Shown in pieces: positions 1,234-55,344 of a stretch of 64,000 nucleotides of DNA (positions are counted from its first letter, which is position 1; each line of letters starts with the position of its first letter). Both the position numbers and the translations under genes were made by a program. This DNA comes from Sipunculus nudus. Its lineage: Eukaryota > Annelida > Sipuncula > Golfingiida > Sipunculidae. Location: contig CM049310.1 of NCBI GenBank assembly GCA_026874595.1, forward strand, positions 39,313,558 through 39,377,557. The letters are read 5' to 3'. Under the pieces are notes generated by a model. That model saw only the letters and a list, made by a program, of their open reading frames with translations. It was not told where the DNA came from and made no database searches.

Positions 1234-1309
1234 AAGCTTGAAGTCATGCGATCTGAAGATGTTTTGTTGAGGCAATGTGTAATATTTACCTTGTTCGCAA
1301 GTATCAATG
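1234..1309 (+). CDS. Copy A exon with start codon and signal peptide
   Basis: After the acceptor-like TCTTCTTTCAG the exon has 12 untranslated bases, then ATG at 1246 and 64 coding nt encoding MRSEDVLLRQCVIFTLFASI plus N and a split Gly. The hydrophobic core CVIFTLFASI fits a signal peptide. Donor G|GTGAAT leaves phase 1. The same length and phase occur in copies B and C. Confidence 0.6.
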
Positions 1310-1467
1310 GTGAATTGATAGTTCTCAATGTGATCATTGCATGTTTGTTTGTGTGTGTGTGTTTGTGTGTGTGAGAGAGAGACATGTTTCAAGATTGATT
1401 GTAGTACGACTTCTAGATATAACAATATTGTTGAGAGGTGAAGAGGAAATGGAATGCAAATAGAAAG

Positions 1468-1538
<71 letters not shown>

Positions 1539-3439
1539 TCAATCAATCTGTGTAATCAGTCATTTCATGAAATGCCTATACATTTAGCCATTTTGCGTAA
1601 TGCCTGTGGCCATCAGTATTTAGGTGAAATGACTAACATTTTGAGTCATTTCATGAAATGACTGAAAATGATGGGGTATAATTACACAGATTGTCTGACT
1701 GCAGATGATCAGGCAATTTGTGTATAATAGGTAAAACTGTGAGAATTGAGCAGATATTTGTCAGGAAGTTACTTAACCAGCTGGCCAATTGTTTCACAAC
1801 TGAGTTGGGGGATAATAGGATACCATCCACAATAGTCTAGTCATTTTACTTGATTTTAAGCAAAACCCGTAACAACATGCCTCACAAATGATTTCTGTTG
1901 TATTATGGCCAGAACGTTTTGGAGAATAATATATCAACAGTCGCAAAAAGTCCCATTTGGATAAAGTTATTTAATATTATGATTTTAATTGGCAAATAAA
2001 CTATAAGTTTTACTTTACTTATACATGCACATCGTCATATTAAACTTGGTCTTTACCCCTCTGATTGACAACTAATTTGATAGATCTGCTCATTGCGTGT
2101 CCATTGAATCTGACTGAGATATAAAATTAACCAATAATAACGATTTTAAGTCCATGTATATTAAAAGGGTAGGGCTCGACAATATTACTTTCCCTCTTGC
2201 CTGAGGGGTTGGGAATATTGTGATAAACAACTTGCCCCATTGTCTGAAAGATACAGTCCATGGGAATATCACAAACAGGATAAATCATATCGAAATAGTA
2301 GTAAATTATGTTTTTATATCACAATATGTATCGTGAGGAATATAGGCTTATCGGCATCAGAGGATATTTAACATTTAAATGGTGTTCAACCCTATTTAAA
2401 TAAGGAGCAATAAAATATGTGAAACCTTGCTAATTCGCCCCTTAAATAAAAAACTGTGTGTTGTACCAACTTTAACAACTTGGCTGGTGAATGCATAATA
2501 AAATTAAAGTTATATTAAAAGTCTTATAAAATACGTCATTCGTGATACGTCATAATGATCATAATGGTAAGCATAAATTATTACGTCACAATTGTAAAAA
2601 AAATTAAGGCATGTAACTGGGTTTACATCCAATGTTAGCTTATTGAAACAGAGAGTGGTCTTAATCTGTTTATGTATAGCTGTGCGTCATTAGCAAGTCA
2701 CGCAAAATTCGCATCATTATAATCCAAAACAGAACAAAAGCCAAATTCCAAAGAATGCTAGGATTTTCTCACTGCTTGCCGACGTCAGCACAAGCATAGA
2801 ACACAATATCCTGTACGTGAAGACAGATCTCATAAGTAAGGAATGATTATAATAGCTAATTTATAGAATATTTACTACTTATAAATAATTCAAGTACACA
2901 ATTTTGTTAGGCTCTTACTTTTGGCTGTTACCAACAGGGATCGGCATTAACAGAAAAGAAAAACTCCCCTGACGACTAGTAAAGCTAAAAAAGATGTAAT
3001 CCACAAAACGTTATTTATTCAGTGATAAATTAAAAATATGAAGGCCAGCTCGATTAATTGAATGCATCTGTCCTGTCGCATAGCTGAATTAAATAAATAT
3101 TATAGATATATTTAAGGCATCACAACATATACCAATCATGTAAATGGAAATTAACTGGATATGAGTAACTGGTTTGAAATATTGCGTCGCATGCAGCCAA
3201 CAGAATGGTGGACAGACACACTAAGATCTGGCATGTATTATATTTGCAATTGTTTGCTTAATTGAATGTATCCTTTCATATAACTCTTGGGATCATCACC
3301 ATTTTCCCTCTTATTTTAAAATTAAGTTGTTTCAGGACACAAATTATTACACAATGCAAGGTAAATTATATTGTTTAATAGACTTTTAATTCAGTTAATA
3401 AATAAAGCATGTTTTATCACATTTTGTCTTCACTTTCTA

Positions 3440-3507
<68 letters not shown>

Positions 3508-4846
3508 TGTGTGTTATATATATTTCAAGGATGCACCCGCTGTGTTTGCTATACACCATGGTGGTTTCTTTTTTAAATAAAACACCGGCATTTTAATCTA
3601 CACGTAATAAAGCGCTATATACTTTTCGTGCCTGAATTTAATATCTAAATTGAAATATAACTGACTGTGCGATTGAAAAAAGCGATATATGTAAGAAAAA
3701 TTATAAGTATGTGCACTAATAATATGATGTTTGCCGTTGATTTTAGGTCTTCCAAGGGTCTCGACAGGATCCATCAGTCTCAGAGCACCATTAGACAACA
3801 CTCCAGAGGTACTCGGCAGAAACAGAAGCCTCCAGTTCGAACATCTTGGATTTTGTCACAGAGTATACAGGCATAGATATTTAAGAGAAGGTCTCTATAT
3901 GAGCTCTCGAACTACAAATAAAACATGTAATCAACGAAGTCCAACGAGCTGGTTCATTTATACTTCCTTCGTTGACAGAGCGTATAGGTTGGGTATTCAT
4001 TTTACATCTAATAATGCCTTAATATACCTATCGCTTGGACGAGGAGAGAACGGAAGCTATATTCACACATTCATGGCCTTGCCAGGTAGGAAGATATATT
4101 TATACTTTTCTGCTATATGCCTATTTTTATACATCTTCATGATTGTTTTTCTAAAGGCTACTGTATATACTACGGTGTCTCGGTTAAGCACAACAATTCG
4201 CATTTTCATGACAGTCAGACAGAGACATTTAATGTTGTTACCTTAATACAGTTTCAGAAGCCAAGACGGGAAAACGGAGGCTCTTAAAAACGTCAACTGG
4301 TGATGCAAATGGTGAGCCAACATCCCGAGGAATCGTGGGTCTCATTATCAGCGGATTAACCATACTGGCAATCCTTCCATTTCTTCTTCTTCATGTCTGG
4401 AGGTTAGAATTTTATAAGTTTATATGGATGTGTCGATTTTTATATAATTTATACCGGTATACCAAAACTGGTATTATCTGTATGTCAGCTCTATTAAATC
4501 ATTTTTTTATCTAGTAGAACATTTACAGCTCAGGTAAAATATAAAATAAAACAATTAGAGGTAGTCATTTGCACCCTCTGAGCGTTTGAACTTGAACACA
4601 CACATTCAGTTTTTACTCAAATCTCATAGCTTGTTTAAAACTTACAGGCGCCAGATTAGACCATTGGAGGAACCATATTCCGAACTCATGCCAATGCAAG
4701 GGATAGACGGACCAACTGACGTAGATGAGAATGTGGATATAACAGATGATAGCCAATCAACCAGCGGTCAAGCAAACTTGGACCAATCGGCAATCGCTAC
4801 TGATCATATGACTTCCTCTGAGGATCATGAATCTGATTCAAAGTGA
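1246..4846 (+). CDS. Copy A: type I membrane protein of an unrecognised family (4 coding exons)
   Basis: Spliced coding exons 1246-1309, 3747-4085, 4258-4402 and 4648-4846 total 747 nt, giving 248 residues and a stop with no internal stop. Intron phases are 1, 1 and 2, exactly as in copy B. Order: signal peptide (1-21), ectodomain (22-158) with three N-glycosylation sequons (N47, N79, N123) and only two cysteines (C58, C82), membrane span (159-182), and an acidic Ser/Gln-rich tail (183-248) starting RRQIRPLEEPYSEL. It should sit at the cell surface with the tail inside. Function is unknown; a receptor or ligand role is inference. The first donor (GTGAAT) is weak, and intron 1 (2.4 kb) contains a MITE and microsatellites. 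It could be a slightly decayed member, but the intact frame across four exons argues against that. Confidence 0.62.
1470..1535. repeat. (TA)n microsatellite in copy A intron 1
   Basis: A 66-base TA run follows a GT/GA-rich stretch. The homologous TA run of copy C is the insertion site of a Tigger-like element (53297-54224). Confidence 0.9.
1544..1693. mobile_element. 150-bp MITE-like element with perfect 13-bp TIRs
   Basis: CAATCTGTGTAAT at 1544-1556 is exactly inverted at 1681-1693 (ATTACACAGATTG). Inside each end lies CATTTCATGAAATG, itself palindromic. No coding capacity. No clear target duplication, because the left flank is the TA tract. Confidence 0.55.
1694..3443. other. Copy A intron 1, no exon seen
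   Basis: AT-rich sequence within the first intron. Apart from the segment at about 2445-2520 related to 664-745, I see no repeat family or exon here. Confidence 0.4.
3444..3520. repeat. Compound (TA)n(GT)n microsatellite
   Basis: About 30 bases of TA pass directly into about 40 bases of GT, upstream of the copy A ectodomain exon. An apparent ORF across it is a repeat artefact. Confidence 0.85.
3747..4085 (+). CDS. Copy A ectodomain exon (phase 1-1)
   Basis: The acceptor GTTGATTTTAG precedes 339 nt (113 codons), ending at donor G|GTAGGA. Residues 22-134 align with the copy B ectodomain at HLG(F/C).C followed by about 24 residues to a second Cys (TTNKTCNQ against TTDKSCDEQ), and at the exon end (GRGENGSYIHT against GQGRNRGYVHT). 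Most of the copy B cysteines are absent, so the fold must be stabilised differently or has changed. Confidence 0.62.
4258..4402 (+). CDS. Copy A membrane-span exon
   Basis: The acceptor ACAGTTTCAG is followed by a phase-1 start. A short basic juxtamembrane stretch (KTGKRRLLK) leads to a hydrophobic span beginning GIVGLIISGLTILAILPFLL and ending LHVWR. Donor AG|GTTAGA leaves phase 2. This exon is close to copy C (DANG.PTS.GIV.LII.GL.ILAI.PF) and shares LIISG and LH.WR with copy B. Confidence 0.65.
4648..4846 (+). CDS. Copy A cytoplasmic-tail exon
   Basis: The acceptor AAAACTTACAG is followed by 199 nt ending TGA at 4844-4846. The tail has RQIRPLEEPYSEL, then PMQGIDGPTDVD, then DQS and SSEDHESDS acidic runs. 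YSEL fits the YxxPhi sorting-signal pattern. There is no ITIM or ITAM. The exon is strongly similar to the last exon of copy C and moderately to that of copy B. Confidence 0.7.
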
Positions 4847-5009
4847 TGATAATTTGGAGGTGTAAGGCTCTTGTTTGATGATATTCCTACTTATTAACAG
4901 GGATATAAAAGCATCTGTTTACAGAAAAGCATAACTCACAGCCACTGGCCGCAACTGCTTGCCAAAATCAATAAGCACCACGTATGTAGTCGTCATTGTT
5001 TTATACATT
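4847..5009 (+). other. Probable 3' untranslated region of copy A
   Basis: Sequence after the stop aligns with that after copy C (CTTGTTTGATGATAT.CCTACTTA and GAAAAGC.TAA.T.ACAG). I see no canonical AATAAA here, so the 3' end is undetermined. Confidence 0.4.
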
Positions 5010-7230: not shown

Positions 7231-8159
7231 AATTTTATCCGATTCTATTCAAATTCGGGTCAGTGATTGTTCTCATGCTTACCTTGGTTGGGATTGGTTT
7301 GAGAGTGACTGTCTCTCAAGATAATAATAAAATATGACATTTCATTTTTATATGATGAATCAGCACATATAGTTTTACTAATCACCCACAGGTGGCGCTA
7401 GCGGTGGACATAAAATTCTGAATTTTTCGCAGTAACTGCTAGATGCTGCTATTTTTTTTATCGTGGTTAAAACTATTTGTACTTGGTCACCACAGACTTT
7501 AAAAAACATCCTGGACTTGAAGGCGGAAGGGAGGGACATAAATTCCTTGAATTTGCTGGTTTCACATGATTCAATTGTGTCTCAAGTCATGCATTCTGAT
7601 AAGAGCCCGCAAGCCGAGTTAGGATCAAGCCGAGCCGAGTTTTATCACTAGGCGTCGTCGATATTTTATCAAGCCGAAGTGAGCCGATTTTGTGCAGCTC
7701 AGTAGGACGAGATAAAAAATAAAACAAAAAGATAATCTTTAACACTTAAATATTGCCCGAAACAAATGTTCAGGTTTTGTTATTTTTTTTTTGTTTCCTG
7801 TCGCTGAAAGGAAAAATTTGTGATTGTTTAAGTGTGAAAGTGTTGGCTCATGAAACCATCAGGATTAACTATGCTCGATATTTAATCATAAACGTGTTAA
7901 ATGTAAATTGAATGTAATATGTCACCCGTAATACAGATAACTTATTTAAATACAAAGGGTACTTCGTAACTTCGTCAAATGAATAGGCTTTCAGGTCAGT
8001 TTAAGCCCAGCCGATTTGCATGATATATGGAGGGAAACTCATCCAAACCTACTAGATGTAAACACAGACCATATTCCGTATTTTCAAGATTAGACTATTA
8101 TCACTGTGACTTATTTTATCACACACGCAAGAAATAGTCCATGGGCTAGGAGGGGTATT
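7231..8159. other. Intergenic, no gene seen
   Basis: AT-rich. Around 7610-7710 there is a cluster of CCGAG/AGCCGA repeats (AAGCCGAGTTAGGATCAAGC and similar), possibly a small decayed repeat. I found nothing else. Confidence 0.4.
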
Positions 8160-9107
8160 TTACGAGGTCAGACATTCAACAAACGTGCGGAGGGATTTAC
8201 TAATATGCTGATATTTACGAGGTCAGACATTCAACACACGTGCGGAGGGATTTACTAATATGCTTATATTTACGAGGTCAGACATTCAACAATCGTGCGG
8301 AGGGATTACTAATATGCTGATATTTACGAGGTAAGACATTCAACACACGTGCGGAGGGAATTACTGATATGCTGATATTTACGAGGTCAGAAATTCAACA
8401 CACGTGCGGAGGGATTTACTCATATGCTGATATTTACGAGGTCAGACATTCAACACACGTGCGGAGGGATTTACTCATATGCTGATATTTACCAGGTCAC
8501 ACATTCAACACACGTGCGGAGGGATTTACTAATATGCTGATATTTACCAGGTCACACATTCAACACACGTGCGGAGGGATTTACTTATATGCTTATATTT
8601 ACGAGGTCAGACATTCAACACATGTGCGGAGGGATTTACTAATATGCTTATATTTACGAGGTCAGACATTCAACACACGTGCGGAGGGATTTACTAATAT
8701 GCTTTTATTTACGAGGTCAGTCATTCAACAAACGTGCGGAGGGATTTACTAATATGCTGATATTTACGAGGTCAGACATTCAACACACGTGCGGAGGGAT
8801 TTACTAATATGCTTATATTTACGAGGTCAGACATTCAACAAACGTGCGGAGGGATTTACTAATATGCTTATATTTACGAGGTCAGACATTCAACACACGT
8901 GCGGAGGGATTTACTAATATGCTTATATTTACGAGGTCAGACATTCAACACACGTGCGGAGGGATTTACTAATATGCTTATATTTACGAGGTCAGTCATT
9001 CAACAAACATGCGGAGGGATTTACTAATATGCTTATATTTACGAGGTCAGACATTCAACACACGTGCGGAGGGATTTACTCATATGCTGATATTTACGAG
9101 GTCAGAT
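8160..9107. repeat. 55-bp tandem array
   Basis: About 17 head-to-tail copies of a 55-bp unit containing TACGAGGTCAGACATTCAAC, ACACGTGCGGAGGG and ATTTACTAATATGCT. Copies differ by single bases (CACACG or AAACG; CTGAT or CTTAT; one 1-base deletion near 8306), so the array is fairly homogeneous. The open frame over part of it reflects the repeat and not a gene. Confidence 0.92.
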
Positions 9108-25025: not shown

Positions 25026-25699
25026 CAATCTAGCTTGCTTGTGGATTTTATCCGGTTTTTATCAGTCTAGCTTGCTTATGGATCATTTCTGTTTTTTTTT
25101 TCAATTCAGCTTGCTTATGGATATTACCTGGGTTTTGTCTGTCCAGCTTTCATATGGATCTTATCAGGATTTTGTCAGTGTAAATTTGCTTATGGCTTTT
25201 ATCTTGTTTTGTTAATCTAGCTAGCTTGTGGATTATTTCCTGTTTTTTTTTTGTCAATTCAGCTTGATAATGGATCCTAGCTGTGTTTTGTAAGTCCAAT
25301 TTTCAATATGGATATTATCTGGTTTTCTTCAATCTATACTTGCTCATCAATCTTATCAGGTTTTGTCAGAGTTCTGCCGATCTAGCTTGCTTGTGATCAT
25401 TTCTGCTTTTGTCCATCCAGCTCGCATTTGGACCTAATCTGTTTTTTGTTAATCTATAGCTTCTTGTGGGTCATTTCTGATTTTTTTCAATCCAGATTGC
25501 TTAAGGATCTTAACTGGTTTTGGCAATCTTAACTTGCTTATTGAATTTTATTTTTTTTTTAATTTAACTTGTTTATCGATCTTATCTGGTCTTGTTTATC
25601 TAGCATGCTTATAGATCTTGTCTGGTTGTGTTTGTCTAGCTTGCTTTTGGGTCTTGTCTGTTTTTGTTAATCTAGCTTGGTAATATATCTTATCTGGTT

Positions 25700-27300
25700 T
25701 TCTTAATCTAGCTTTCCTATGGATCTTCACTGGTTTTGTTAATCTAGCTTGTTTATGGGTCTTCACTGGTTTTGTTAATCTAGCTTGTTTATGGGTCTTC
25801 ACTGGTTTTGTTGATCTAGCTTGTTTATGGGTCTTCACTGGTTTTGTTGATCTAGCTTGTTTATGGGTCTTCACTGGTTTTGTTGATCTAGCTTGCTTAT
25901 GGGTCTTCACTGGTTTTGTTGATCTAGCTTGCTTATGGGTCTTCACTGGTTTTGTTAATCTAGCTTGCTTATGGGCCTTCTCTGGTTTTGTTAATCTAGC
26001 TTGCTTATGGGCCTTCACTGGTTTTGTTAATCTAGCTTGCTTATGGGCCTTCACTGGTTTTGTTAATCTAGCTTGCTTATGGGCCTTCACTGGTTTTGTT
26101 AATCTAGCTTGCTTATGGCTCTTCACTGGTTTTGTTAATCTAGCTTGCTTATGGCTCTTCATTGGTTTTGTTAATCTAGCTTGCTTATGGCTCTTCACTG
26201 GTTTTGTTAATCTAGCTTGCTTATGGCTCTTCACTGGTTTTGTTAATCTAGCTTGCTTATGGCTCTTCACTGGTTTTGTTAATCTAGCTTGCTTATGGCT
26301 CTTCACTGGTTTTGTTAATCTAGCTTGCTTATGGCTCTTCACTGGTTTTGTTAATCTAGCTTGCTTATGGCTCTTCACTGGTTTTGTTAATCTAGCTTGC
26401 TTATGGCTCTTCACTGGTTTTGTTAATCTAGCTTGCTTATGGCTCTTCACTGGTTTTGATCATCTAGCTTGCTTATGGCTCTTCACTGGTTTTGATAATC
26501 TAGCTGCTCATGGCTCTTCACTGGTTTTGTTAATCTAGCTTGCTCATGGCTCTTCACTGGTTTTGTTAATCTAGCTTGCTCATGGCTCTTCACTGGTTTT
26601 GTTAATCAAGCTTGCTCATGGGTCTTCACTGGTTTTGTTAATCTAGCTTGCTCATGGGTCTTCACTGGTTTTGTTAATCTAGCTTGCTCATGGGTCTTCA
26701 CTGGTTTTGTTGATCTAGCTTGCTCATGGGTCTTCACTGGTTTTGTTGATCTAGCTTGCTCATGGGTCTTCACTGGTTTTGTTGATCTAGCTTGCTCATG
26801 GGTCTTCACTGGTTTTGTTGATCTAGCTTGCTCATGGGTCTTCACTGGTTTTGTTGATCTAGCTTGCTCATGGGTCTTCACTGGTTTTGTTGATCTAGCT
26901 TGCTCATGGGTCTTCACTGGTTTTGTTGATCTAGCTTGCTCATGGGTCTTCACTGGTTTTGTTGATCTAGCTTGCTCATGGGTCTTCACTGGTTTTGTTA
27001 ATCTAGCTTGCTTATGGCTCTTCACTGGTTTTGTTAATCTAGCTTGCTTATGGCTCTTCACTGGTTTTGTTAATCTAGCTTGCTTATGGCTCTTCACTGG
27101 TTTTGTTAATCTAGCTTGCTCATGGCTCTTCACTGGTTTTGTTAATCTAGCTTGCTTATGGCTCTTCACTGGTTTTGTTAATCTAGCTTGCTTATGGCTC
27201 TTCACTGGTTTTGTTAATCTAGCTTGCTTATGGATCTTCACTGGTTTTGTTAATCTAGCTTGCTTATGGATCTTCACTGGTTTTGTTAATCAAGCTTGCT
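25700..27300. repeat. Homogeneous 36-bp array, frame-preserving on the minus strand
   Basis: About 44 copies of a 36-bp unit (GTTAATCTAGCTTGCTTATG then GCTCTTCACTGGTTTT). Because 36 is a multiple of three, the minus strand stays open for 284 codons (26450-25596) and 223 codons (27277-26606), each a 12-residue repeat K(S/T/A)H(K/E)QAR(L/S)TKPV. Sub-types come in blocks, with the KTH-to-KSH order seen twice (25740-26460 and 26600-27220), suggesting a segmental doubling. Short-indel copies near 26460-26600 break the frame. I see no start context or introns that would make this a gene. It ends about 120 bp before copy B. Confidence 0.9.
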
Positions 27301-27423
27301 TATAGATCTTATCTGGCTTTTGTCGGACATCTGTACTCTGTTCGGTCATTGGTATAACCATCTTTAAGGGATTTCATTTCAACACAGTTTTCTATTGTTT
27401 ATAAACAGTTGTTCATTTTTCAG

Positions 27424-27499
27424 ATCCAGAGGGCCATGCAAGCTCACGGGACTTTGGTGCGAAAATGTATCCTGCTGGCAGCTTTCACAAGCATTACTG
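27424..27499 (+). CDS. Copy B exon with start codon and signal peptide
   Basis: The acceptor-like GTTCATTTTTCAG precedes 12 untranslated bases, ATG at 27436, and 64 coding nt encoding MQAHGTLVRKCILLAAFTSI plus T and a split Gly. Basic n-region (VRK) and core CILLAAFTSI. Untranslated and coding lengths equal those of copies A and C. TTTATAAAC lies about 37 bases before the ATG. Confidence 0.65.
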
Positions 27500-28210
27500 G
27501 TATATAAGTATTTTCAACATGATCAATGTATATTTTTTTTTCGTGAGAGTAGGAGAAAATGTGATAGTGTTCAGTTGGATAGTCGCCTTGAAATACCACT
27601 TCTGTTTAAAGGGTGTGAAGGTGATATGAATTCCCCGTCCTCTTCGCCAATGGGGCTTCTCTCTAAAAAAATATCTCACACACACATATGCAACCATTCA
27701 TGTAATAACTAATATAAACACTAAAGTGTTTTTGACTTAACTTATAAAAATGATGATGAATAAATGATGATGTCTGGCAATATTCATGAAAATAAACATT
27801 AAGCTAAAACATTCCAGGAACAAGTACACGTGCAAAAAACTAGATGCCAATGGGTCACGACGCTAAGCTGCTGTTTATAAGGAAAATTTTTAAAAACTAC
27901 AAAAGAGGATGTTATTTTTTTTTTTACCTCAAATAAACAGGGTTCTTCCTTTATTACAGGTTATGTGTATACATATGAAAGATGGAAGGTTGGGTATTAC
28001 AAGGTTTGGCTTAAAATGTGTCTACCGTGTTTTTGAAGATGGGTTTCTGTGACCTTTATTAACCTTTGACATTGTTATCTCAAAACAAAAGGGTTTTTTC
28101 TCCAATCAGAAGGTGATCATTATGTAAAAGATTTGGGATGAACATTTAGCTACAAATGTGTCCGAGGATTTCAAGAATGGGTTCCTATGACCTTGACCTT
28201 GTGACCTCAA

Positions 28211-28259
<49 letters not shown>

Positions 28260-31081
28260 TATATCATTTCTTTTCCTTCGACAGGTCTAACAATCATCGA
28301 GATCGGCTCGTGCAAGTCCAATTTCGTAAACGACACGACTGTGATTCTTGTAAAAGCAAGAGGCCACCAGATGGCGCATCTTGGCTGTGGCTGCACGGCT
28401 TACGTCAATGGTTTCCTCAGCGCAGATTTCAACGTAAGCTTCGCAACAACAGACAAATCATGTGATGAACAAATTTCAATGACCTGTAACGGAGAAACCG
28501 GCTTCCAGTCTTGCTCCAGCTTGGACAGTAACGTTTCACAGACATACGGCATATCGAATGTTCCATGTAACATGAGCATAAATTACACATGGCGGGGGCA
28601 AGGAAGGAATCGAGGATACGTCCACACTATCTTACAAGGTAAAAATTGATTTTTAGAATCACACGTTCTTATAAGATACATGCGAGGCCACATCTACATT
28701 ATCTAATCAGCAAATGAATCTTAGATATGTTTCATTGTCCGTTACACTTTTTAAGTAATCTTTCTTTCGGAAAAGACTACAATATAGTCTGACACTTGTC
28801 GGACAGACAGGCACTAAAATTCGTGTTAAGAGTCCCAGGACACTAACATGAATCGTGCTTCTCCTCAATCATTATAAAAGACAGGCTTCACTACAAAATG
28901 TTAGTGGAGTCAGTAAGTTTGAAAAGAATCCAGATCTTGCTAATGCACAAAAATAAAGAAACCCATCCATATGCAACTTGGCAGAACAGGACGGTGTGTC
29001 GGCATATTTCTGTCTCTTCCTTGTTACGAGCTTCAAGCTTACAGTATCAGATTCCTCCGCCTGAGGTCAGTGTTCATGGTGACTGGTAATCTTTGGGACA
29101 CAGGCGTACATATTATAGGTTGGTGACTTTTTAATTATCTTATACACGGTATCCTTTGAACTTCTTGGTTAATTTCCTGATCAGTCAACCGAGTACAAAA
29201 CACAAGGTTTTATACCTACGTTCGCCGCATTAAGTTCATGTATAAAATGCAAAGTTTGTGCATGGATTGCTGTTTTGCACATGCAATTTTACCCTTATAA
29301 ATTCTGAAACTAAAATATAGTTTTTCTCCCCAGGAAATCGAAGCATGTTTATTTTGCTTATATCCCAGTTCTCGCTCGATTATTAATGAACCCTAATGAA
29401 CCTTGCCTATCACTCTCACACCTGTATAAGTGTGCGTATGCCCACCATGCGTGTCTTGTAAACCTCACATAATATACCATACCCAGTCTATACTTTATCT
29501 TAGATCATACCAAATATATACAGGATCAAAATCTTGATAAGGCCGGCTGAAGGTATTGTTCGCAGCCAACCAGTTTTCACCGAAACCACTGAATGCTTTA
29601 CCCCATGTAACTTCTCTACAGTCTCTTGAATAGAACTTTTCCACGTTCACTGCCTGTAACGATTTTCGGCAATGTTTGGTTCAAATTGGAAAATCAAATA
29701 CAAATCGGTAAGAATACTCCGGTAAGAATATCGCCATTAAATCTAAGGTATTATTATTATTATTATTATTAATCATCTTAGATATAACAAAATATGATCT
29801 TTTTTTTTTTTTGCTATAACGCACCCGATCACTCAGTGTCAATGGTTGCCGGTAGATATCGCAACTTTGGTGTGAAAGGTTTATTGCTTCGACAATCAGA
29901 CGATCTGCCGGATATACGAATACAGCGTATACACGTTGAATTATGTTCCACTGGGTAATTTTAACTGCTTTGTGACAACAGGGAGCAGGGCTGTGAGGGT
30001 AATTTGCAGACCAACAAGTAAGAAGGCCTCGGGTCAGCTTTCATCAGGGACTGTCGTGGTCCTCATCATCAGTGGAATAAGCATTTTGGTCATCGTCACA
30101 GTCGTCGCTCTTCACTTGTGGAGGTGAGAAGAGTGGGTCACATGGTGCTTCTATAATAAAATAATGATACTCGGTCACTGTAATGGAAACTGCTCTGGAA
30201 TCAGATGCAGATCCAAGGGGGTCCGGAACAACCCCCCCCCCCCCCTATCTTTTTTTCAAGTTTTAAGACTATTTTTAAGGCCTAGACTCTCTCTTTTCCT
30301 GACTAGTTCATTTTGATTTAGGTTTAGGTATTAGTTCTCCAGGATTAGACCTCTCCTTTTTTTTCGAAATCCTCGATAAATCCCTGGGAATTCATATTCA
30401 GATGATATTTAGTCCCGAATGTACAGGTATTTACCCCGTTAAATATTTTCTACCCCTTATAACTCAAATGTCCTAATAACTATGTTAGACCAAAAGCTTG
30501 CCATTTTAACAAGTGTGAAGTGTTAAGTGCAGCTCCTTAAACCTTTGGTCCAAGAAACATGAATACAAAATTTAATATAATCTCTTTATAAGGAAGGGAC
30601 TATACTTGACACGGTGTATATATTTTCAATTAAGGGTCCAGTTACTTTGCAAAACCATGAACTTTTATTAAAGTGTTATTCAAATTTTAATGCAATCAAC
30701 TGTAACAATAGTTTTAATTTAAAGATGTGATTATTTCGTGGACTGTCTCTGTGGTTTGTCTTTCTCTATGCATGATGTATAAATGTGTGTATTAACAGAA
30801 TATGTAGCAGTCCAACATCCTTGTGTGCTTACACTATTTGTTAGCGCACACATGTAAACAAAATATTTCTACAAATTATCACTTTGTTTTAACTTTAAAG
30901 GCGCCGGATAAGACCGCTGGAAGAACCGTATTCCCCACTCGATGTAGATACAACCAATGACCAATCAGACAGCGGCCAAACAGGCGCTGACCAATCACCG
31001 AGTCCTTCTGGTCAACCAGTGACTGGAACTTCGAATGAGGAGAATGGAACTGTTGATGACCATCTTATATTACAGGACTAA
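27436..31081 (+). CDS. Copy B: type I membrane protein of an unrecognised family (4 coding exons)
   Basis: Coding exons 27436-27499, 28285-28638, 29982-30123 and 30901-31081 total 741 nt: 246 residues and TAA, no internal stop. Introns have phases 1, 1, 2 and good splice sites (acceptors TTTTCCTTCGACAG, TTGTGACAACAG, AACTTTAAAG; donors GTATAT, GTAAAA, GTGAGA). Order: signal peptide 1-21; ectodomain 22-161 with eight cysteines (31, 56, 58, 81, 89, 98, 116, 148) and five sequons (N37, N71, N104, N117, N121); membrane span about 162-185; tail 187-246 with RRIRPLEEPYSPL. Even cysteine number and heavy glycosylation suit a secreted-side domain with disulfides. It is the best-preserved family member here. 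I do not recognise the domain; an Ig-like or other small beta fold cannot be told apart by eye. Function unknown. Confidence 0.7.
28215..28264. repeat. (TA)n microsatellite in copy B intron 1
   Basis: TA run ending 20 bases before the ectodomain exon acceptor. Its length variation could affect splicing of that exon (inference). Confidence 0.85.
28285..28638 (+). CDS. Copy B ectodomain exon (phase 1-1)
   Basis: 354 nt, 118 codons, symmetric phase 1-1 like a shuffled extracellular module. Landmarks: IGSCKS, HLGCGCTAY, TTDKSCDEQISMTC, SCSSLDSNVSQTYG, PCNMSINYTW and a closing GQGRNRGYVHT. Five N-glycosylation sequons fall here. Confidence 0.72.
28639..29981. other. Copy B intron 2
   Basis: Contains a (TTA)n run at about 29748-29770 and a T run near 29800. 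A 35-codon open stretch just before the next exon (from 29876) is out of phase with the preceding exon, so I treat it as intron. Confidence 0.5.
29982..30123 (+). CDS. Copy B membrane-span exon
   Basis: Starts in phase 1 after TTGTGACAACAG, gives GSRAVRVICRPTSKKASGQL, then a span VVVLIISGISILVIVTVVAL closing LHLWR, and leaves phase 2 at AG|GTGAGA. Cys148 sits just outside the membrane. Confidence 0.75.
30901..31081 (+). CDS. Copy B cytoplasmic-tail exon
   Basis: 181 nt after AACTTTAAAG; RRIRPLEEPYSPLDVD, then two DQS motifs separated by SGQTGA, ending DDHLILQD and TAA. YSPL fits YxxPhi. HLIL near the end is a leucine-rich close unlike copies A and C. Confidence 0.72.
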
Positions 31082-34400: not shown

Positions 34401-34584
34401 CCAAGGAATGCTCTCAATCAATGATAGATTTACTTACTCCTATAGACCACTTATACTCGGTTATATGTAAGTTTCTTATCAAATTATCATATCTTTGAAA
34501 AAAAGCTAACCGCCTATTCCAGATATATCTTTAACATTACGTATTCCTTTATCCAATCAAAAACGATGAAAATGATTTTTAAAA

Positions 34585-35605
34585 CAATGACTGGTGTAAT
34601 ATAACACAATATAACAATGACTAATGTAATATAACACAATATAACAATGACTAATGTAATATAACACAATATAACAATGACTAATGTAATATACCACAAT
34701 AAAACAATGACTAATGTAATATAACCTAATATAACAATGACTAATGTAATATAACACAATATAACAACGACTAATGTAATATAACACAATATAACAACGA
34801 CTAATGTAATATAACACAATATAACAACGACTAATGTAATATAACACAATATAACAACGACTAATGTAAAATAACACAATATAACAACGACTAATGTAAT
34901 ATAACATAATATAACAACGACTAATGTTATATAACACAATATAACAATGACTAATGTAATATAACACAATGTAACAACGACTAATGTAATATAACACAAT
35001 ATAACAACGACTAATGTTATATAACACAATATAACAACGACTAATGTAATATAACACAATATAACAACGACTAATGTAATATAACACAATATAACAACGA
35101 CTAATGTAATATAACACAATATAACAACGACTAATGTAATATAACACAATATAACAACGACTAATGTTATATAACACAATATAACAATGACTAATGTAAT
35201 ATAACACAATATAACAACGACTAATGTAATATAACACAATATAACAACGACTAATGTAATATAACACAATATAACAACGACTAATGTAATATAACACAAT
35301 ATGACAATGACAAATGTTATATAACACAATATAACAATGACTAATGTAATTTAACACAATAAAACAATGACTAATGTGATATAACCAAATATAACAATGA
35401 CTAATGTAATATAACACAATAACAATGACTAATGTAATATAACCCAATATAACAAGGACTAATGCAATATAACACAATATAACAATGACTAATGTAATAT
35501 AACACAATGTAACAATGATTTATGTAATATAACACAATATAACAATGACTAATGTAACATAACACAATATAAAAATGACTGACGCAATATAATACACTAT
35601 AGCAC
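34585..35605. repeat. 30-bp tandem array
   Basis: About 34 copies of a 30-bp unit (TAATGTAATATAACACAATA plus TAACAACGAC). The central block has ACGAC, the edges ATGAC, as expected if the centre was homogenised most recently. A 2-base deletion near 35420 shifts the phase. Both long minus-strand frames (10-residue repeats) are products of the period. Confidence 0.92.
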
Positions 35606-42435: not shown

Positions 42436-43160
42436 CAGGCGATCACTTGCTGGTCCTCTTGCTGCTGCGGCTCGTCCGCGGGTTGCAGACTTGGTTTTGG
42501 GCAAACCAATTTGCTACCAGCAGCCAAGAGAGAGGTTGCGCTCCGCTCCCCATCCCCATACTCTCTACATAAAGCAAAGAGTCGATTGTTTACGTCACGG
42601 CTTCTGTGTGACAATATCCTGGAGACTTGCTCCCTTGACACTAGTTCGGCTGTCATATTCACAACCTGTGCCTCCTTGTGCAGCAACTTGACCAAACGGC
42701 CAATTCCCTTTCTTCCAGTGCTGAGGGTTCGTGGAAGGAACCGAGGTCTTCTGCGTACAGACTGGCGTCCTGTGCCTGTGTTTCCTCTGGGGCTGCATTA
42801 ACTGCTTCCTCCGGGGCTTCCTCCACGGGTTCGGGCTGATGCATTTCTATGGGGGCTGTAGTAGTTGCTTCCTCCGGGGTCTCGTCTACAGGTTCGGTCT
42901 GAAGCAGATCTAGGGGGGGGGGGGCAGTAGTTGCTTCCTCTGGGGTCTCGTCTACAGGTTCAGGTTGTTGTTCTTTACCTTCGGCGGAATTCTCGGCTGG
43001 CGATGTCGCCATCTGTCGGCAAGGCTGGCACATCCATTCAAGCCACCCTTCTCTGGTCGCCTCTTCATATTCCACAACTGACACTCCTGTATTACACTTG
43101 AGGTGCTGCCAACCATCACAGCAGTCACACTGGAGGGCGTTTTATTCAATATTATCTATC
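42436..43160 (-). pseudogene. PHD-finger gene fragment, frameshifted
   Basis: From about 43140 leftward: ALQCDCCDGWQHLKC then WLEWMCQPC, the second half of a PHD zinc finger (Cys-x2-Cys, x4-His-x2-Cys, late Cys-x2-Cys with the usual Trp). The first Cys pair is cut off by an upstream stop. Three imperfect repeats with PEPV(D/E)E(T/A)PEEA follow. Near 42700 the frame breaks; the next frame continues with RLVKLLHKEAQVVNMTAEL and SRDVNNRLFALCREYG to a stop at about 42436. Similar half-PHD sequences are known to me from transposon-associated proteins in molluscs. It is enclosed by the TIRs, so it is either the element's own decayed gene or captured host sequence. Confidence 0.65.
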
Positions 43161-43443
43161 TGGAAGATAACCCGATGTATACTTGCATAATTAGTATGTT
43201 TATATATATATATAATTTATATAATTTATATAATTTATATAATTTATAATTTCGAAATACATTAATATATTTTTATATAAAATAAATTCATGGTAAGCCT
43301 TGATTTATTATATTCGCTTTATTTGGAAGATAAGTCGGTGATTTGGTTTATAAATTTATTTACATTTTTATTATAATGCTTTAGTAGGCCTATTTATGTA
43401 GGTATGTGTATATATATATATTTATACATACATTATATATACA

Positions 43444-43510
<67 letters not shown>

Positions 43511-43723
43511 AGACTATAGATTATCCAATGAAACGTATAATGAGGAGGCGGCGGCCGATATGGTAGCCTAGTTCTTTCCGCGGCCGATATGGTTGACTTG
43601 ACAGAGTTAATACAGGCCTGTGGGCAATTGCAGCTGGCGGCCGATATTGCGTCCCGCTGGGCGCCGGCGGCCGATATGGTCCATTTGAGGCCGGCCGCCG
43701 ATGTCGACGGCAGCCGATATGTC

Positions 43724-45157: not shown

Positions 45158-45206
<49 letters not shown>

Positions 45207-48214: not shown

Positions 48215-48216
<2 letters not shown>

Positions 48217-48268
<52 letters not shown>
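48217..48268. repeat. (TA)n microsatellite
   Basis: TA run of about 50 bases. Confidence 0.88.

Positions 48269-49159: not shown

Positions 49160-49163
<4 letters not shown>

Positions 49164-49240
<77 letters not shown>
49164..49240. repeat. (TA)n microsatellite
   Basis: TA run of about 77 bases. Open frames through it on both strands are artefacts. Confidence 0.92.
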
Positions 49241-49242
<2 letters not shown>

Positions 49243-50063
49243 ATCAATATCATCAAAATGAGTGTGATAGTGTTTTAATCAAGTATGCTTCCCAGTTATT
49301 ACGTTACCCTCATTATCATGAGGTAAACTCCGACCGTACCTTCTGATGTAACATTGTTACTAATTGAAACTTGGCTGTGTGTTGTTCATCAGGTGTGACA
49401 TGTATAAGGATTCATACATGCGGTGACTGTTGATCATAAAAATCACAATGCCAAAATTAAAGGGACATAATTAGGAGCAATATGATGCCTGTTCTTTCAC
49501 ACTATTTCAGTATTGTTTTATACAGAAGTTTCCCAACAAAACCCTCCGTGCCTTCACATGGGCTCAGTACCTCCCTTTCAGTTTGTTATGGTTCTGCGTG
49601 TGAGTAAACACGGTCTGAGTGTGACACTTTACCATAAAAGGCCGCGGGACTGGATGTCCGATTTTGTGCATGCGCGACAGATCCCAACAAGGAGTAGTCC
49701 AAACTAGTTCATACATACATCGTCATGTCCTCTATATCTTTTGTTGGATGGTATTACGGTTCATGGGCCGATTATAAATTTATTGTGAACCAGCCCAGGA
49801 GGGTCAACTGAAATGACATACTAAACACAGTGAGATCCGGTGTATTTGGTCCATGAGTCACGGCACCACGTAACAGCGGGAACATGTATTAATTTACATT
49901 TCTTAGGGTAAAATCAGTCAGGGCATCTCTTGGTTGACAGGCGCTGTGGCCTGAACATCAACATGAATGTTTATGACAACATTAATTGTTAGCCTGAAAA
50001 AAAAACGGGCAACGGATTTGGCGTTGGCGCTATGTTTATATTGGCACCAGTGACCGTTTTTTT

Positions 50064-52206
50064 TAGCTCAGCTGACTGAAAGTCATCTGAGCTATAGCGA
50101 TCACTCTTTGTCCGTCGTCCGTCTGTCCGTCTGTCCGTTAACCAAACACAAATAGTAACCGCAGGATTTAGAACCTTGTAACTTGGGATTCTGGGAGGTC
50201 CATGAAAAATCTCCTTGGAAACCAGAAATTAGGTCTCTGTTACCCATATCCTTCGAGCTATAGGGCCCCAAAGTACCCCCCCCCCCCCCAGAAAAGTAAA
50301 AAAAAATTCATACAAAAACTTCAATATCTCATTAACTACTTGACTGATGGTCATGATTTTTGGCATACATATTGATCATTAGATGTTCCATCACTTCCTG
50401 CAGACTGGTGGCGCCAGATGTATTTTTAGATTTTTTACGAATTTTTTTCTCTATTTTTGAGACCTTTAAATATAAGAACATCTGTTAACAAGGCACAAAT
50501 CGTAAAGACTGGACCTAAAATCTTAATTCTTGACACACTGAGAGGTCCATGAAAAATCTTCTTGGAAACCTGAAATAATGTCTCTGTTACCCATATCCTT
50601 TGAGCTGTGGGGGGCTCCCAATAACCCCCCAGAATAATGGAAAATTTGATAAAAACAAACTGCAACATCTCAATAACTACAACACTGATGGTCATGATTT
50701 TTGGCATACGTATTGATCAAGAGGTGTTCCATCAGTTATTGCAGACTGGTAGCGCCACCTGTATTTTTTCAAATTTTCACAATTTTTTTTCTCTATTTTT
50801 GAGACCTTTAAGGATGTAGTTATCTGTCAACAGGGTACAAATCGTAACGACTGGACCTAGAATCTTCATTCTTGACACACAGGGAGACCCATGATAAGTC
50901 TACATGGAATTCTGATATTAGGTCTCTGTTACCCATAACCTTTGAGCTATGGCACTCCAAAGTACAGCTCAGAATAATGGAAAATTTGATACAAAAGCTG
51001 AAGTATCTGAACAGCTAATGCAGAGATCACCATAATTGTTTGCATGGATATTGATCATGGAGTGTTTCATCAGTTTCTGCAGACTGGTGGCACCACCTGT
51101 ATTTGTTCGGGTGTTTTTTACGAAATTTTCTATATTTTTGAGACCTTTAAAGATATGAACATATCTTTACCGGGTTCCTCCGCCGCCACCACGTTCATTT
51201 CCAGAGAGCTCCTCTGAGACTAATGGACCGATTTTTTCCGAAACTTACACCAATTATCGGGTCACATGTGAACTGGTGCCTAACCAATTTGCGTTGACGT
51301 CTGACCTTTCCTCTCTATCCAGCGTCCATTAGTGCGTCTGTTTCCACTCTCATATCTCGTGAACCGTTTGACCGATCAGGAAATAAAATTTATACAAATG
51401 TAGCCCTTGCTTTATAACATACACAAAAAATGGTGGCGACACCTGTAACCATGTTTGCACAGTGTCCATCTGTTCATCTGCCTTGGGTTAAAATCACTCA
51501 TATCTCTGCAGTTAATTGACTAATTCACCTGAAATTCGGCATGTGTATACATCCAGGATAGCTTTCTTGATTTTATGAACGGTGGCGCCACCTACATTCT
51601 AGTTAACGCTGCACACATCCAAGCTCATATCTCAGGAACAATTTGACCGATTGGACCAAAATTGTGCATATGTTTAGATCTCACATAGGTCTTTATCATA
51701 CACAAAACTCGAGGGGCCACCTGCAACCATTTTTGCACAGCGTCTGTCTGTTTGTCTGCCGTGGGCTAAAATCACTCATATACATGTAGCTGTTTGACTT
51801 TTCTGCCTAAAATTTTGCATATGTATACAACTTGGACAGCTTTCTGGATTTGTTGTAGGTGGCACAACCTACATACACATTTAGGCTGTAGACATCCATG
51901 CTAATATGCAACATACCTCACTCTATTTCCCCTTGCCACCAATCAATGCCTCACTTCACCCGTTCCACTCTGATTTTGGCGGGTACACGTAGTCACTTGT
52001 CGGCTTGCCCGTATTCTAGTTTTTAAAGTTTACACATTTTTTCTCTATTTTTGAGATATATAAATACAGACTAAATCTTGGCCTGTTGGTTAATCTGTTT
52101 GACGCTTCAGTTGAATGGGTATATACTACCATTCTGATGATAAAATTTCCTTTTGCGAATCTCTTCCCAGTCAGCTGAGCGTCATGACCCATGGGTCACT
52201 TGTTAT
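50064..52206 (-). repeat. Interspersed repeat with TCAGCTGA end, copy 2 (long form)
   Basis: Inverted relative of 10390-11552: it begins TTAGCTCAGCTGACTGAAAG, CATCTGAGCTATAGCGATC and TGTCCGTCGTCCGTCTGTCC, and ends GTCAGCTGAGCGTCATGACC, CATGGGTCACTTGT. Inside, a unit of about 345 bp carrying TCTCTATTTTTGAGACCTTT and GGTCTCTGTTACCCATA occurs three times between 50150 and 51170, followed by units with GTGGCG.CACCT. No coding frame found. Confidence 0.7.
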
Positions 52207-52639
52207 ACTCACGTACAGAATTTTAAGCCAACGGTGTCAGGGTATTATTGTGACAGGTACCATTTTATTTCGGAGAGAAGACGAAAATTTAAGTGTTCAT
52301 TTATCATTCTTTCATCTTTCATTCATTAGGTCCCTTAAACAATTTTTCTGAGTCTACTATAAAAAATAGCCTTACTCCAGGTAAGAATTAATATAAATAA
52401 AACCTCCCTTTTTACCCTTGTACATGGTTGTAATATCTAAAATAGGGCTATATTAAGGTTCATTGAGTGAAGAGTCCGGGAAGCTCGGGTCAAAATTTGA
52501 GAGCGTCACTACGGAATATAGCGCAACCCAATGGGAGGTGATCTGTAATAAATGTTGGAGGGTTTGGATAAAATTTAAAATGTTCGTATCATTACATGAT
52601 AAGATATCGCCAGGTAGTTGGCGATGGTCAGTGTCTGCT

Positions 52640-53011
52640 TCAAAAGCCAACTTTGATCTTCTCGGTCTCAGTCAGAATTTCCTGTTGGACGCTTCGTCCC
52701 CATAACCGAGTGTCCCAATAGAAATTTCGAGCGTCACAAATGCTTACACTGTACTTGCATTCTTGAAAGCTGTGATTGTTTGTTCTTTCACCATCCTTGT
52801 TCTTTGTTGCTAAGCGATAATTGCACCTGTAATGGTTCCTACTATATTTGAAAGTATAGGAAATAGAGAGCGTATATAGCTAATTATAATATAGAATTTG
52901 ATCAAAACCAGGCTCTATAAACTCCACTGAATTCCCTCCCGCATGTGCATAATGTGTGTACATATCATGATGTGTTTTACTATTTCAACGTGTTTTCCTC
53001 TCTTCTTTCAG
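52640..53011 (+). promoter_or_regulatory. Upstream block of copy C, shared with copy A
   Basis: Collinear with 834-1233 (see that entry), including the GGCTCTATAAACT box at 52911-52923 and the CTCTTCTTTCAG acceptor-like sequence before the start codon. It is the better guide to which upstream positions are conserved. Confidence 0.5.
52916..52921 (+). promoter_or_regulatory. Candidate TATA box of copy C
   Basis: TATAAA in a 15-base block identical to copy A, 103 bases before the ATG. Confidence 0.35.
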
Positions 53012-53087
53012 AAACTTGAAGTCATGGAATCTGAAGATATTTTGTTGAGACGACGTGATATATTTATTTTGTTTGCAAGTATCTGTT
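53012..53087 (+). CDS. Copy C exon with start codon and signal peptide
   Basis: ATG at 53024 and 64 coding nt encoding MESEDILLRRRDIFILFASI plus C, then donor T|GTAAGT, a strong site leaving phase 1. Nearly the same as copy A (SED.LLR, IF.LFASI). Confidence 0.55.
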
Positions 53088-53296
53088 GTAAGTTTATAGT
53101 TCCTAATGTGATCAATGCACGTTTTTTTCTGTGTGTGTGTGTGTGTGTGTGCAGTACATACATGTGTGTGTGTTTGTGTAAAAGAGAGAGAGAAAATTGC
53201 ATCAAGATTGTTTGTAGAACGACTTTTAGATGGAACAATATCGTTTAGAATAGGAAATGGGAACGTGGAATAGGGTTGCAAATAAAAAGTGATATA

Positions 53297-54224
53297 CAGA
53301 AGAACGCCTGCTAACGGCCACGCCTCAATAACGGCCAATACGTCTATAACGGTCAGATTTTCCGGTCCCGAATTTTCGACCGTTTTATTTCATAATCATT
53401 TTGTTGTCAATTACGGTCACTCATCTATTGCGTATTACGGCCAGGTCGCTCGGTCCCGCAGGCCGGGAAACGCCTCAATTACGGTCAGGTGCAGTGACTG
53501 CCTGACATAGGCTCAACTAATCGAGTGGCCACTTCTGACCTAAATATCATTACACAAGTGTCCGCTCTCACATATTCCTGTCTGTGCCTAAATAAAGGTA
53601 ACCACTCGACCGTGGCTGCATGAGTTGTTTGACACGTAGCCAGCGTCGTACCTCCCAACTCAGCCTCTTTAGTGTGCACAATGGTATAAGGCATGTGTCC
53701 CCACCTGCGTGTACGTTTGGCAATCAGTCGTGCGAGCCGGATCTTAATCAGGGTATTGGTCAATTAATTAACGAATGACAACCAGCGGGTCCCGATAAAT
53801 ACGTCATCAGAAAAACGCCAGGCGGTGGATCTTTAAACTCTCTTCATTGTCCTTGTGAACACGTACATCAAACGAAAACAGTGCGGCAAACATTGCACAA
53901 TTTACCCATACATGAATAATTATGAATGCAAAATAAACATTGTAACATGTATAAAATGTTACGCATACTCTGTCTAAATCACTTTGACCATTATGGCTAC
54001 CAATAAAAGACAATAAGTAAATATTTTATTCTTTTTATTGATAACAGTAATTATACAAATACTCTGTATATACGTTTATTTTGTTGATTGTATAAAGATT
54101 TGAACTTGGTTTCGTGTTACATTTTAAACCCCCTCTCCTGGTCAAGTCCTGTATCACGGCCACTCCTGTATTAAGGCCAAATTCATCAAGTCCCGATGGT
54201 GACCGTAATACAGGCGTTCTACTG
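53297..54224. mobile_element. Tigger/pogo-like element inserted in a TA tract
   Basis: Ends CAGAAGAACGCCTG and (inverted) CAGGCGTTCTACTG, flanked by TA on both sides, as in Tc1/mariner/pogo insertions. Subterminal AACGGCCA and TCACGGCCAC motifs repeat at both ends. 928 bp, no recognisable transposase frame, so non-autonomous. It sits where copy A has its (TA)n run, so it entered after the A/C duplication or after divergence at that tract. Confidence 0.8.
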
Positions 54225-54654
54225 TATATATATATATATATATCATGCATGACCCACTGATACCTAAAATGTTGTAACACAGCCTATAGTTTCAGTAGCC
54301 CCTCCTAAGGCTGGGTATCTTGTGGGATAGGGTTGGCAAGCCAGAGGCCAGACTATTGAAGAGGGTGATGCGGAAAATTCATGTGCTCTTTAATGTATGA
54401 CATAGGGAACCTTGCTAGAGTTAGCATTTTCTTGACTGCATGGGTAAATAGTCAAGACCCCCAGTTCCTGTAGTTCAGGTTTTTCAGGCCTTCTTCAGAT
54501 AGAACCTGGACCCCAGTTATAATTATTATATTGTGTCATAAACTTACACGACGGTGACACTTTCAGTTTCATTACTGATGTATTATTGTTGTATTTGCTG
54601 TATCATTTTTAAATTCGTTAGCTATTATATATTCATTTTATTGCAGTTTTCATT

Positions 54655-54860
54655 CAGATTTTCTGGCAGAGCCAATGGCAGAAAGATATTTTTTCTGGCG
54701 ACCTGGCAGCTGCCAGGGGACAGAGTTTTGGCAGCCTAGCAGTTGCCGGGATTGAGAATTTTGCCGGCCTGGGAGTTGAATGGCCGCCGAATTTTGACGC
54801 CCTGGGATTTGCCGGGGTGCAGAATTTCGCCGCCCGGGGAGTAGGATGTTCTGCCGTTGC
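54655..54860. repeat. 33-bp degenerate minisatellite upstream of copy C membrane exon
   Basis: Five to six loose copies of a unit with GGCAGCTGCCAGGG or GGGATTTGCCGGGG and AGAATTTTGCC. The minus strand reads (Q/R)(L/I)PGRQNS-type 11-residue repeats. Much more GC-rich than the surroundings. Absent from the same place in copies A and B. Confidence 0.65.
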
Positions 54861-54894
54861 AGCTGCCGCACAAAATCAATTGCCGTAATGGCAG

Positions 54895-55025
54895 AGGGAG
54901 AAACTTGCCAACCGTGTCGTTGATGCAAATGGTCAGCCAACATCCCCAGGAATCGTGGTCCTCATTATCCGCGGATTATACATACTGGCAATCGTCCCAT
55001 TTCTTCCTTTTCTTCATGTCTGGAG
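54895..55025 (+). CDS. Copy C membrane-span exon (start uncertain)
   Basis: EKLANRVVDANGQPTSPGIV leads into a span interrupted by Arg, then LHVWR and donor AG|GTAGGA in phase 2 as in A and B. It has one more codon than A in the span. Confidence 0.5.
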
Positions 55026-55115
55026 GTAGGAATTTTATAAAGTTCACTAGGCTGTGTCGATCTTTATATAATTTCAATTATTACTCAAATCTTATAGCTT
55101 GTATATAATTTGCAG

Positions 55116-55344
55116 GCCCCCTATTAGACCATTGGAAGAACCATATCCCGAACCAATGCCTATGCAAGAAATTGACGGACCAACCGACATAGACGTTAAT
55201 ATGGATATATCAGATGTTGGCCAATCAATGAGCGACCAAGCAAGCTATGACCAATCAGCAGTCGCTTCTAGTCAACCCACTGAACACATGCCTTCCTCGG
55301 AGGATTATGAATCTACTCAAAGTGACAGTATTATACAGGTATAA
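55116..55344 (+). CDS. Copy C cytoplasmic-tail exon
   Basis: The acceptor TATAATTTGCAG is followed by RPPIRPLEEPYPEP, PMQEIDGPTDID, two DQ(A)S stretches and SSEDYEST. Longer than in A by an extra STQSDSIIQV end. YPEP loses the YxxPhi pattern seen in A and B. Good conservation suggests recent descent from the same copy as A. Confidence 0.6.

Follow-up and report, generated by a model that had tools for sequence, protein, structure and literature searches.

What do three look-alike genes on one strand of a sipunculan chromosome encode, and how far does their kind extend? They lie in a stretch of 64,000 nucleotides of the Sipunculus nudus genome (hereafter the window), in which a sequence-only reading had described three copies, A, B and C, of an undescribed type I membrane-protein gene sharing one exon code. 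On balance, we think that A and B probably belong to a largely tandem, expanded and diversifying family of type I receptors carrying an undescribed six-cysteine domain.

The exon code of copies A and B

Both copies splice as that reading had written them: all six junctions are GT-AG, in phases 1, 1 and 2, and lead to open frames. The exons are as follows.

1234-4846, + strand: copy A, whole; spliced, open frame of 248 residues
1234..1309, + strand: A signal exon; 12 untranslated and 64 coding bases, start codon at 1246, ends in phase 1
3747..4085, + strand: A ectodomain exon; phase 1-1, highly diverged
4258..4402, + strand: A membrane exon; phase 1-2
4648..4846, + strand: A tail exon; IRPLEEPYSEL, runs to the stop
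27424-31081, + strand: copy B, whole; spliced, open frame of 246 residues
27424..27499, + strand: B signal exon; 12 untranslated and 64 coding bases, signal peptide
28285..28638, + strand: B ectodomain exon; phase 1-1, family cysteine pattern present
29982..30123, + strand: B membrane exon; sixth family cysteine, short stalk and membrane helix, phase 1-2
30901..31081, + strand: B tail exon; IRPLEEPYSPL, runs to the stop

The signal exon of 12 untranslated and 64 coding bases, reported for A, B and C, recurs in a fourth copy, D, and therefore implies an upstream non-coding exon in each of the four. In A, B and D, splice sites and spliced frames are intact, and the sequence shows the layout of a type I single-pass protein: a signal peptide (judged from hydrophobicity and by eye), an extracellular part, one helix across the membrane and a cytoplasmic tail, the latter with one YxxL-type motif.

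With A as the tblastn query, B is found in all four exons and in order, with E values by exon order of 0.11, 1e-4, 7e-6 and 0.012. A profile from which all chromosome-5 members were left out finds the B ectodomain ORF at E 4e-21, the next of the 1231 window ORFs standing at 0.37. Together with the purifying selection on B and D described below, these results bear out the view that the likeness of A and B exceeds chance. The A ectodomain itself is only weakly recognised against B (the 1e-4 above), was missed among the window ORFs by a profile built without A, and has as its best other matches genome-wide B and D, at only E 0.15 and 0.2. Of the six family cysteines it keeps one in register, another being displaced by one residue from the CxC pair; A sits on a very long branch (7.1). 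Its homology is argued from position, phase and weak similarity, and it may no longer be able to fold.

Four copies on chromosome 5

The cluster comprises four copies of one subfamily on chromosome 5: A, B and C in the window and D outside it, intact, 10-14 kb upstream (G000:C5:39299310-39303206). Thus the original count of three holds for the intact A and B, misses D, and includes in C a broken copy; we rejected the idea of three copies of equal standing. The parts of C, with the flanks that tie it to A, are listed below.

953..1233, + strand: upstream flank of A; aligns to the C flank
52721..53011, + strand: flank upstream of C; aligns to the A flank
53012..53087, + strand: C signal exon (decayed copy)
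54921..55025, + strand: C membrane-exon remnant; start and original acceptor lost
55116..55344, + strand: C tail exon (decayed copy); IRPLEEPYPEP, runs to the stop

An ectodomain exon was looked for in C and not found. The likeness of its membrane exon to that of A does not begin before 54921, and each of the two in-phase AGs in 54860-54990 runs into a stop once joined to the signal exon. Read from its sequence, C is a wreck, with signal, part-membrane and tail exons left and the ectodomain exon and membrane-exon acceptor gone. The upstream flanks of A and C can be aligned, 953-1373 on the A side with 52721-53151 on the C side at 76%, which speaks for A and C being duplicates. D with A and B with C look, to judge from the sequence, like a two-gene unit present twice.

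The tails of A and C differ by dN 0.147 and dS 0.410 (dN/dS about 0.36), and their membrane remnant, with 10 changes only, gives dN 0.115 above dS 0.077 and no sign of constraint. Between B and D, dN is 0.03 and dS 0.16 in the ectodomain, and 0.08 and 0.18 over the whole. Fisher tests on rounded counts give p 0.0001-0.0007 for the ectodomain exon, where B and D are, by this measure, under purifying selection; outside it the synonymous excess is not significant (p 0.12).

A family of six-cysteine ectodomains

Five queries returned 62 merged genome places, 56 of them at E <= 0.01 in at least one query. Counting B and D, the 1.43-Gb genome holds no fewer than 56 ectodomain loci, 49 of them labelled stop-free; they lie on six chromosome-size contigs, mostly in clusters, those on C6, C7 and C16 among them. 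A membrane exon was recognised downstream in 22 of the 36 loci examined. None was taken in the other 14, among which L062 has a helix ORF that was left out and L064 probably has its membrane exon further downstream, in L071; the rest showed no convincing membrane exon within the roughly 1.5 kb fetched. Where the membrane exon is present, the exon code recurs: all 22 loci have an in-phase phase-1 donor after the ectodomain and a phase-2 donor after the helix, 20 of 22 have the ectodomain's phase-1 acceptor, and 19 of 22 have a phase-1 acceptor of the membrane exon beside the right strand. In 20 of 21 joined rows the sixth cysteine is carried by the following exon, A being the exception, a count that is partly by construction since the rows were joined by eye at the sixth-cysteine motif. 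The fourth and fifth cysteines are lost together in L010, L015 and L024, and the stalk is rich in Ser, Thr and Pro in most relatives examined.

The tails are more local. A genome search for IRPLEEPY tail exons, proposed alongside the original description, led only to the four-copy cluster: of two tail queries, one led to B and D alone and the other to A and C, no such tail turned up elsewhere genome-wide, and we rejected IRPLEEPY as the family's general tail. Candidate tail ORFs with tyrosine motifs lie downstream of six relatives: L007 (in L069), L016, L019, L021, L022 and L014 (in L072). The YAEP and VPVPxKSWE motifs of other clusters' tails are absent from those on chromosome 5.

Most of the recent paralogue pairs have an ectodomain dN/dS of 0.56-1.36, and their frames are nonetheless open; relaxed constraint could lie behind values near 1. 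Six paralogue pairs show no stops in about 215 non-synonymous differences, where about 14 would be expected, in loci that had been picked as open matches. The sequence shows B, D and several of the paralogue pairs to be coding.

The original description could match the ectodomain to no known family, and the library searched gave no convincing match either. Pfam matches among 23 ectodomains, counted at E up to 1, are sporadic and weak, touching 15 families by one or two members each, the best being DUF5884 at E 0.0034; we treated them as chance, like a match of B to DUF2561 (E 0.026, below its cut-off). Neither A and B nor the 23 ectodomains matched an Ig family in Pfam, and Ig membership was rejected for that reason. 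The ectodomain profile matched no PDB chain. A match of B to LAG3 in the PDB (E 0.0022) covers residues 152-227, which are stalk, helix and tail and not ectodomain, and was deemed spurious. AlphaFold2, given window sequences only, returned pLDDT 41.6 and 37.4, too low for use, and strands only. Rfam has no match in the window at the gathering threshold, and none of the paper titles listed describes such a family, a weak sign that it has gone undescribed. The proposal of a surface-protein family is supported for its signal peptide, ectodomain, helix and sorting-type tail, and the family is far larger than proposed; the role of receptor or ligand is one that we infer.

Receptors, ligands or relics

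To explain these results, we propose that each protein would consist of a signal peptide, one ectodomain some 125 residues long, a stalk, a helix that crosses the membrane once and a tail in the cytoplasm. The ectodomain, probably all-beta with six conserved cysteines (C, CxC, C, C, C), would be encoded by one phase 1-1 exon and the first residues of the next. It may bind a variable partner, such as a microbial, symbiont, or self or gamete surface, and tyrosine motifs in the tail could recruit SH2/PTB adaptors. For the chromosome-5 subfamily, whose tails have a lone YSPL or YSEL beside LEEP or LEGP, we would expect that motif to act in AP-2 type internalisation or as one SH2 dock instead. There, the B-type ectodomain, held by purifying selection, would have a conserved partner, and the A-type would have diverged and lost most of its disulfides.

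Could the proteins rather be adhesion or gamete-recognition ligands, with a surface-ligand ectodomain, a chromosome-5 tail that only sorts, and divergence that reflects mate or self recognition? We consider this unlikely. The short chromosome-5 tail with its one YxxL-type motif would fit, as would the fast ectodomain divergence of most of the recent pairs and a two-gene unit that pairs a conserved (B/D) with a diverged (A/C) type. However, B and D evolve slowly in that same cluster, and the six relatives' candidate tail ORFs carry several tyrosine motifs, which favours a receptor over a ligand. Still less probable is a reading of the ectodomain as a diverged CUB domain and of the family as a CUB-receptor expansion of a known kind. 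CUB domains resemble it in cysteine spacing and approximate length, and a local profile alignment pairs its C.C, C-acidic and RCS with the CUB C.W, C.YD and CG. In hhalign, however, the profile-profile score against a CUB profile of five sequences typed from recall was 13.3 (P 0.12), the reversed CUB profile scored 13.9, and 4 of 60 column-shuffled ones scored as high. CUB is absent from the 15 Pfam families and there is no PDB profile match; membership, suggested by the cysteine spacing, was left unsupported by the shuffled and reversed controls.

We give the least credence to the view that A and C, perhaps with the rest of the chromosome-5 cluster, are relics that decay without a function. 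In C the ectodomain exon and the acceptor of the membrane exon have gone, A has a single family cysteine in register on its long branch, and the A/C membrane remnant has dN above dS. But B and D are intact with a constrained ectodomain, A reads without a stop through its four exons, whose splice sites are intact, and the A/C tail ratio suggests long constraint.

Taken together, a six-cysteine beta domain at 50 or more loci, one exon code, cluster-specific tails, recent paralogues that are mostly diversifying and a conserved B/D pair could, we tentatively suggest, make up an uncharacterised innate immune or symbiont-recognition repertoire. Invertebrates, having no antibodies, depend on large sets of germline-encoded receptors. 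Should this family prove to be such a set, expressed and used in recognition, it would add one ectodomain type to their list, and, if so, its shared exon code and tail motifs should ease its discovery in other species. Repertoires without known domains escape annotation based on domain libraries.

How does the family compare with known systems? A CUB domain shares its approximate length and cysteine spacing, and the ectodomain differs in having an additional cysteine at CxC and its sixth one on the following exon. The vertebrate FcR-like, Siglec and TIM proteins and cnidarian Alr are immune-type receptors with one ectodomain and tyrosine motifs, expanded in tandem. Like them, the present family has a signal peptide, an ectodomain exon, a stalk, one helix, a tyrosine-motif tail, tandem clusters and a fast-changing ectodomain; their ectodomains, however, are Ig-like, whereas here a different six-cysteine pattern is found, with no Ig match in Pfam.

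A four-copy cluster and its probable history

The sequence-only reading had proposed three same-strand copies of a type I membrane-protein gene that start with a like signal exon, followed in A and B by ectodomain, membrane and tail exons. The proposal holds, and these copies turn out to belong to a large, undescribed family of receptor-like genes, with one correction: A and B are intact, but C is a wreck, its ectodomain exon gone and its membrane exon partial. A fourth copy, D, lies upstream of the window.

1234-4846: copy A
27424-31081: copy B
53012-55344: copy C, decayed
G000:C5:39299310-39303206: copy D, 10-14 kb upstream of the window, intact 253-residue frame

Re-spliced at the junctions first proposed, A and B give stop-free frames of 248 and 246 residues, with every junction GT-AG and phases 1, 1 and 2. 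In all three window copies, as in D, the signal exon consists of 12 untranslated bases followed by 64 coding ones. Besides this exon, C retains its tail exon and a portion of the membrane exon. Here its DNA resembles the membrane exon of A only from 54921 onwards; upstream of that point the two cannot be aligned, and neither DNA comparison with A nor a profile search of the window ORFs revealed an ectodomain exon. Moreover, both in-phase AGs within 54860-54990 lead to a stop once joined to the signal exon. Thus, C is a wreck.

The genome-wide search for IRPLEEPY-type tail exons that had been suggested found only A, B, C and D in the 1.43-Gb assembly, one query giving B and D and the other A and C. 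A and C have flanks and membrane and tail stretches in common (74-86% DNA identity), and D and B have blocks in common, introns included (73-78%). Given the gene order D, A, B, C, the simplest history would be duplication of a two-gene unit.

In the comparison of D with B, the ectodomain exon has dN/dS 0.03/0.16, the membrane exon 0.11/0.22, the tail 0.10/0.18 and the signal exon 0.28/0.25. By Fisher's test, run on rounded counts, the ectodomain reaches p 0.0001-0.0007 and the other three exons pooled p 0.12. Between A and C, dN and dS are 0.147 and 0.410 in the tail, 0.178 and 0.345 in the signal exon, and 0.115 and 0.077 in the membrane remnant (ten changes only). B and D are coding genes, and A was one through much of its past and may still be one today.

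Other features of the window are as follows.

8159-9106: tandem repeat, 55 bp unit
25444-27323: minisatellite, 36 bp x 52 copies; both strands carry open frames longer than 200 codons, and the array ends ~100 bp upstream of the B signal exon
34583-35601: tandem repeat, 30 bp unit
42659-43141: minus-strand fragment resembling a PHD finger (sub-threshold in Pfam, E 0.0016), perhaps derived from a transposon
50191-51162: tandem repeat, 342 bp unit

A family spread over six contigs

The B protein has 35 matches in the assembly at E up to 10, among them the cluster's own exon pieces and, on other chromosomes, many isolated open exons. Four further member queries gave 46, 29, 25 and 39 matches (E cut-offs 1, 0.1, 0.1 and 0.1, respectively). 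Merged by coordinates, the five queries define 62 places, 56 of them scoring E <= 0.01 with one query or more (a tally that takes in B and D but not A); this is a lower bound of matches, only the best candidates being scored, and is not a count of working genes. Of these, 49 are labelled stop-free inside the match, one short fragment shown without a stop having been scored as broken. The places sit on C5, C6, C7, C9, C12 and C16. Most are clustered and some isolated, as on C9 and C12; broken copies lie chiefly at C7:23.36-23.43 Mb. One locus (L026) has two ectodomain exons 1.3 kb apart.

A profile of members from outside chromosome 5 recovers B at E 4e-21, the next best of 1231 window ORFs scoring 0.37. 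A is absent from these matches, and likewise when the profile contains B and D but not A. As a query, A finds itself first. B and D come next, at E 0.15 and 0.2, and after them scattered weak matches, mostly to one repeated sequence. In the ectodomain tree (37 rows; bootstrap unsettled, 13 of 34 inner branches open) members mostly group by genomic cluster, as tandem duplication predicts; B and D pair together with no other member, and A, which has the longest branch, has no partner.

Ectodomains were compared across 20 loci in 28 pairs of at least 45% identity, many with members in common and so not independent. dN/dS is 0.56-1.36 in 17 recent pairs (dS <0.4), 0.30, 0.30 and undefined in three C7:19.31 pairs, and 0.42-0.84 in eight older pairs; B/D stands out at 0.17. 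In six non-overlapping pairs, ~215 non-synonymous differences include no stop against ~14 expected without constraint, in loci that had been picked up as open matches. The compared ectodomains are therefore coding sequence, either diversifying or under loose constraint.

At C6:77441091-77505399 the family unit repeats at ~32 kb intervals; three ectodomain exons equal the query exactly and two others score equal to each other, so that either the array formed very recently or the assembly has duplicated the unit. Bacterial-type oxidase ORFs occur on C60, C61, C62, C66, C72, C74, C75, C89 and C123. Nine of these cytochrome oxidase ORFs are 577-578 aa long and score almost alike, two of them on C89, 2.04 Mb apart; that on C123 is different and shorter. 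From these ORFs, some contigs of the assembly seem to be bacterial. The ORF examined, L073, has <=58% identity to the best 80 prokaryote-genome loci among the matches listed, from which nearer records may be missing; its source is possibly a deep-branching associate or symbiont.

Ectodomain, exon code and tails

Five cysteine positions of the ectodomain are kept in 31, 32, 32, 30 and 29 of 33 aligned rows. The sixth lies in the following exon, in 20 of the 21 rows joined to it, partly by construction as rows were joined by eye at this motif; a scripted count of 22/22 takes in L046 and L064, whose letter at this position comes from read-through sequence, and omits A, which has a gap there. Three loci (L010, L015 and L024) lack both the fourth and fifth cysteines, a joint loss which suggests that these two pair with each other; as the three are close relatives, the loss may be one event. 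In A, the fourth family cysteine alone is still in register.

A membrane exon was assigned in 22 of 36 loci. All 22 have an in-phase phase-1 donor near the ectodomain-exon end and a phase-2 donor past the helix. In 20, a phase-1 acceptor falls no more than 36 bases from the first cysteine, and each of these loci has one at 20, 11 or 8 bases; the scan takes any in-phase AG or GT, and an individual case may be due to chance. For the membrane-exon acceptor, the check fell next to the correct strand in 19 loci; in L028, L030 and L043 the pattern had picked a wrong one. Ser/Thr/Pro make up 10-58% of the stalk (>=34% in 17 of 22). Tentative signal exons have 64 bases in L008 and 79 in L028, L030, L061 and L062 of the C16 cluster.

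Pfam gave only sporadic matches for A, B and 23 ectodomains, and a family profile found no chain in the PDB. A CUB domain, tried owing to the cysteine spacing, received no support from profile comparison. AlphaFold2 models of the window sequences are strand-only and of very low confidence.

Candidate tail ORFs of other members were assigned by downstream position. The motif [VI]YA[EQ]P is found in L069 (downstream of L007), L016, L019, L021 and L022. L072 (downstream of L014) joins these five in having a VPVPxKSWE-like element, and L069, L016 and L019 share the C-terminal motif S[IV]M[VI][ED]N..Y. Two further ORFs, L068 and L070, are unlike the motif-bearing ones. Among four tails scanned with Pfam, three had no match and the fourth a weak hit to AIG2_2 (E 0.09). 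We envision that the extracellular part of these proteins would serve variable recognition and that the tyrosine motifs would act inside the cell, the shared tail motifs being what we take to be putative SH2/PTB docking sites.
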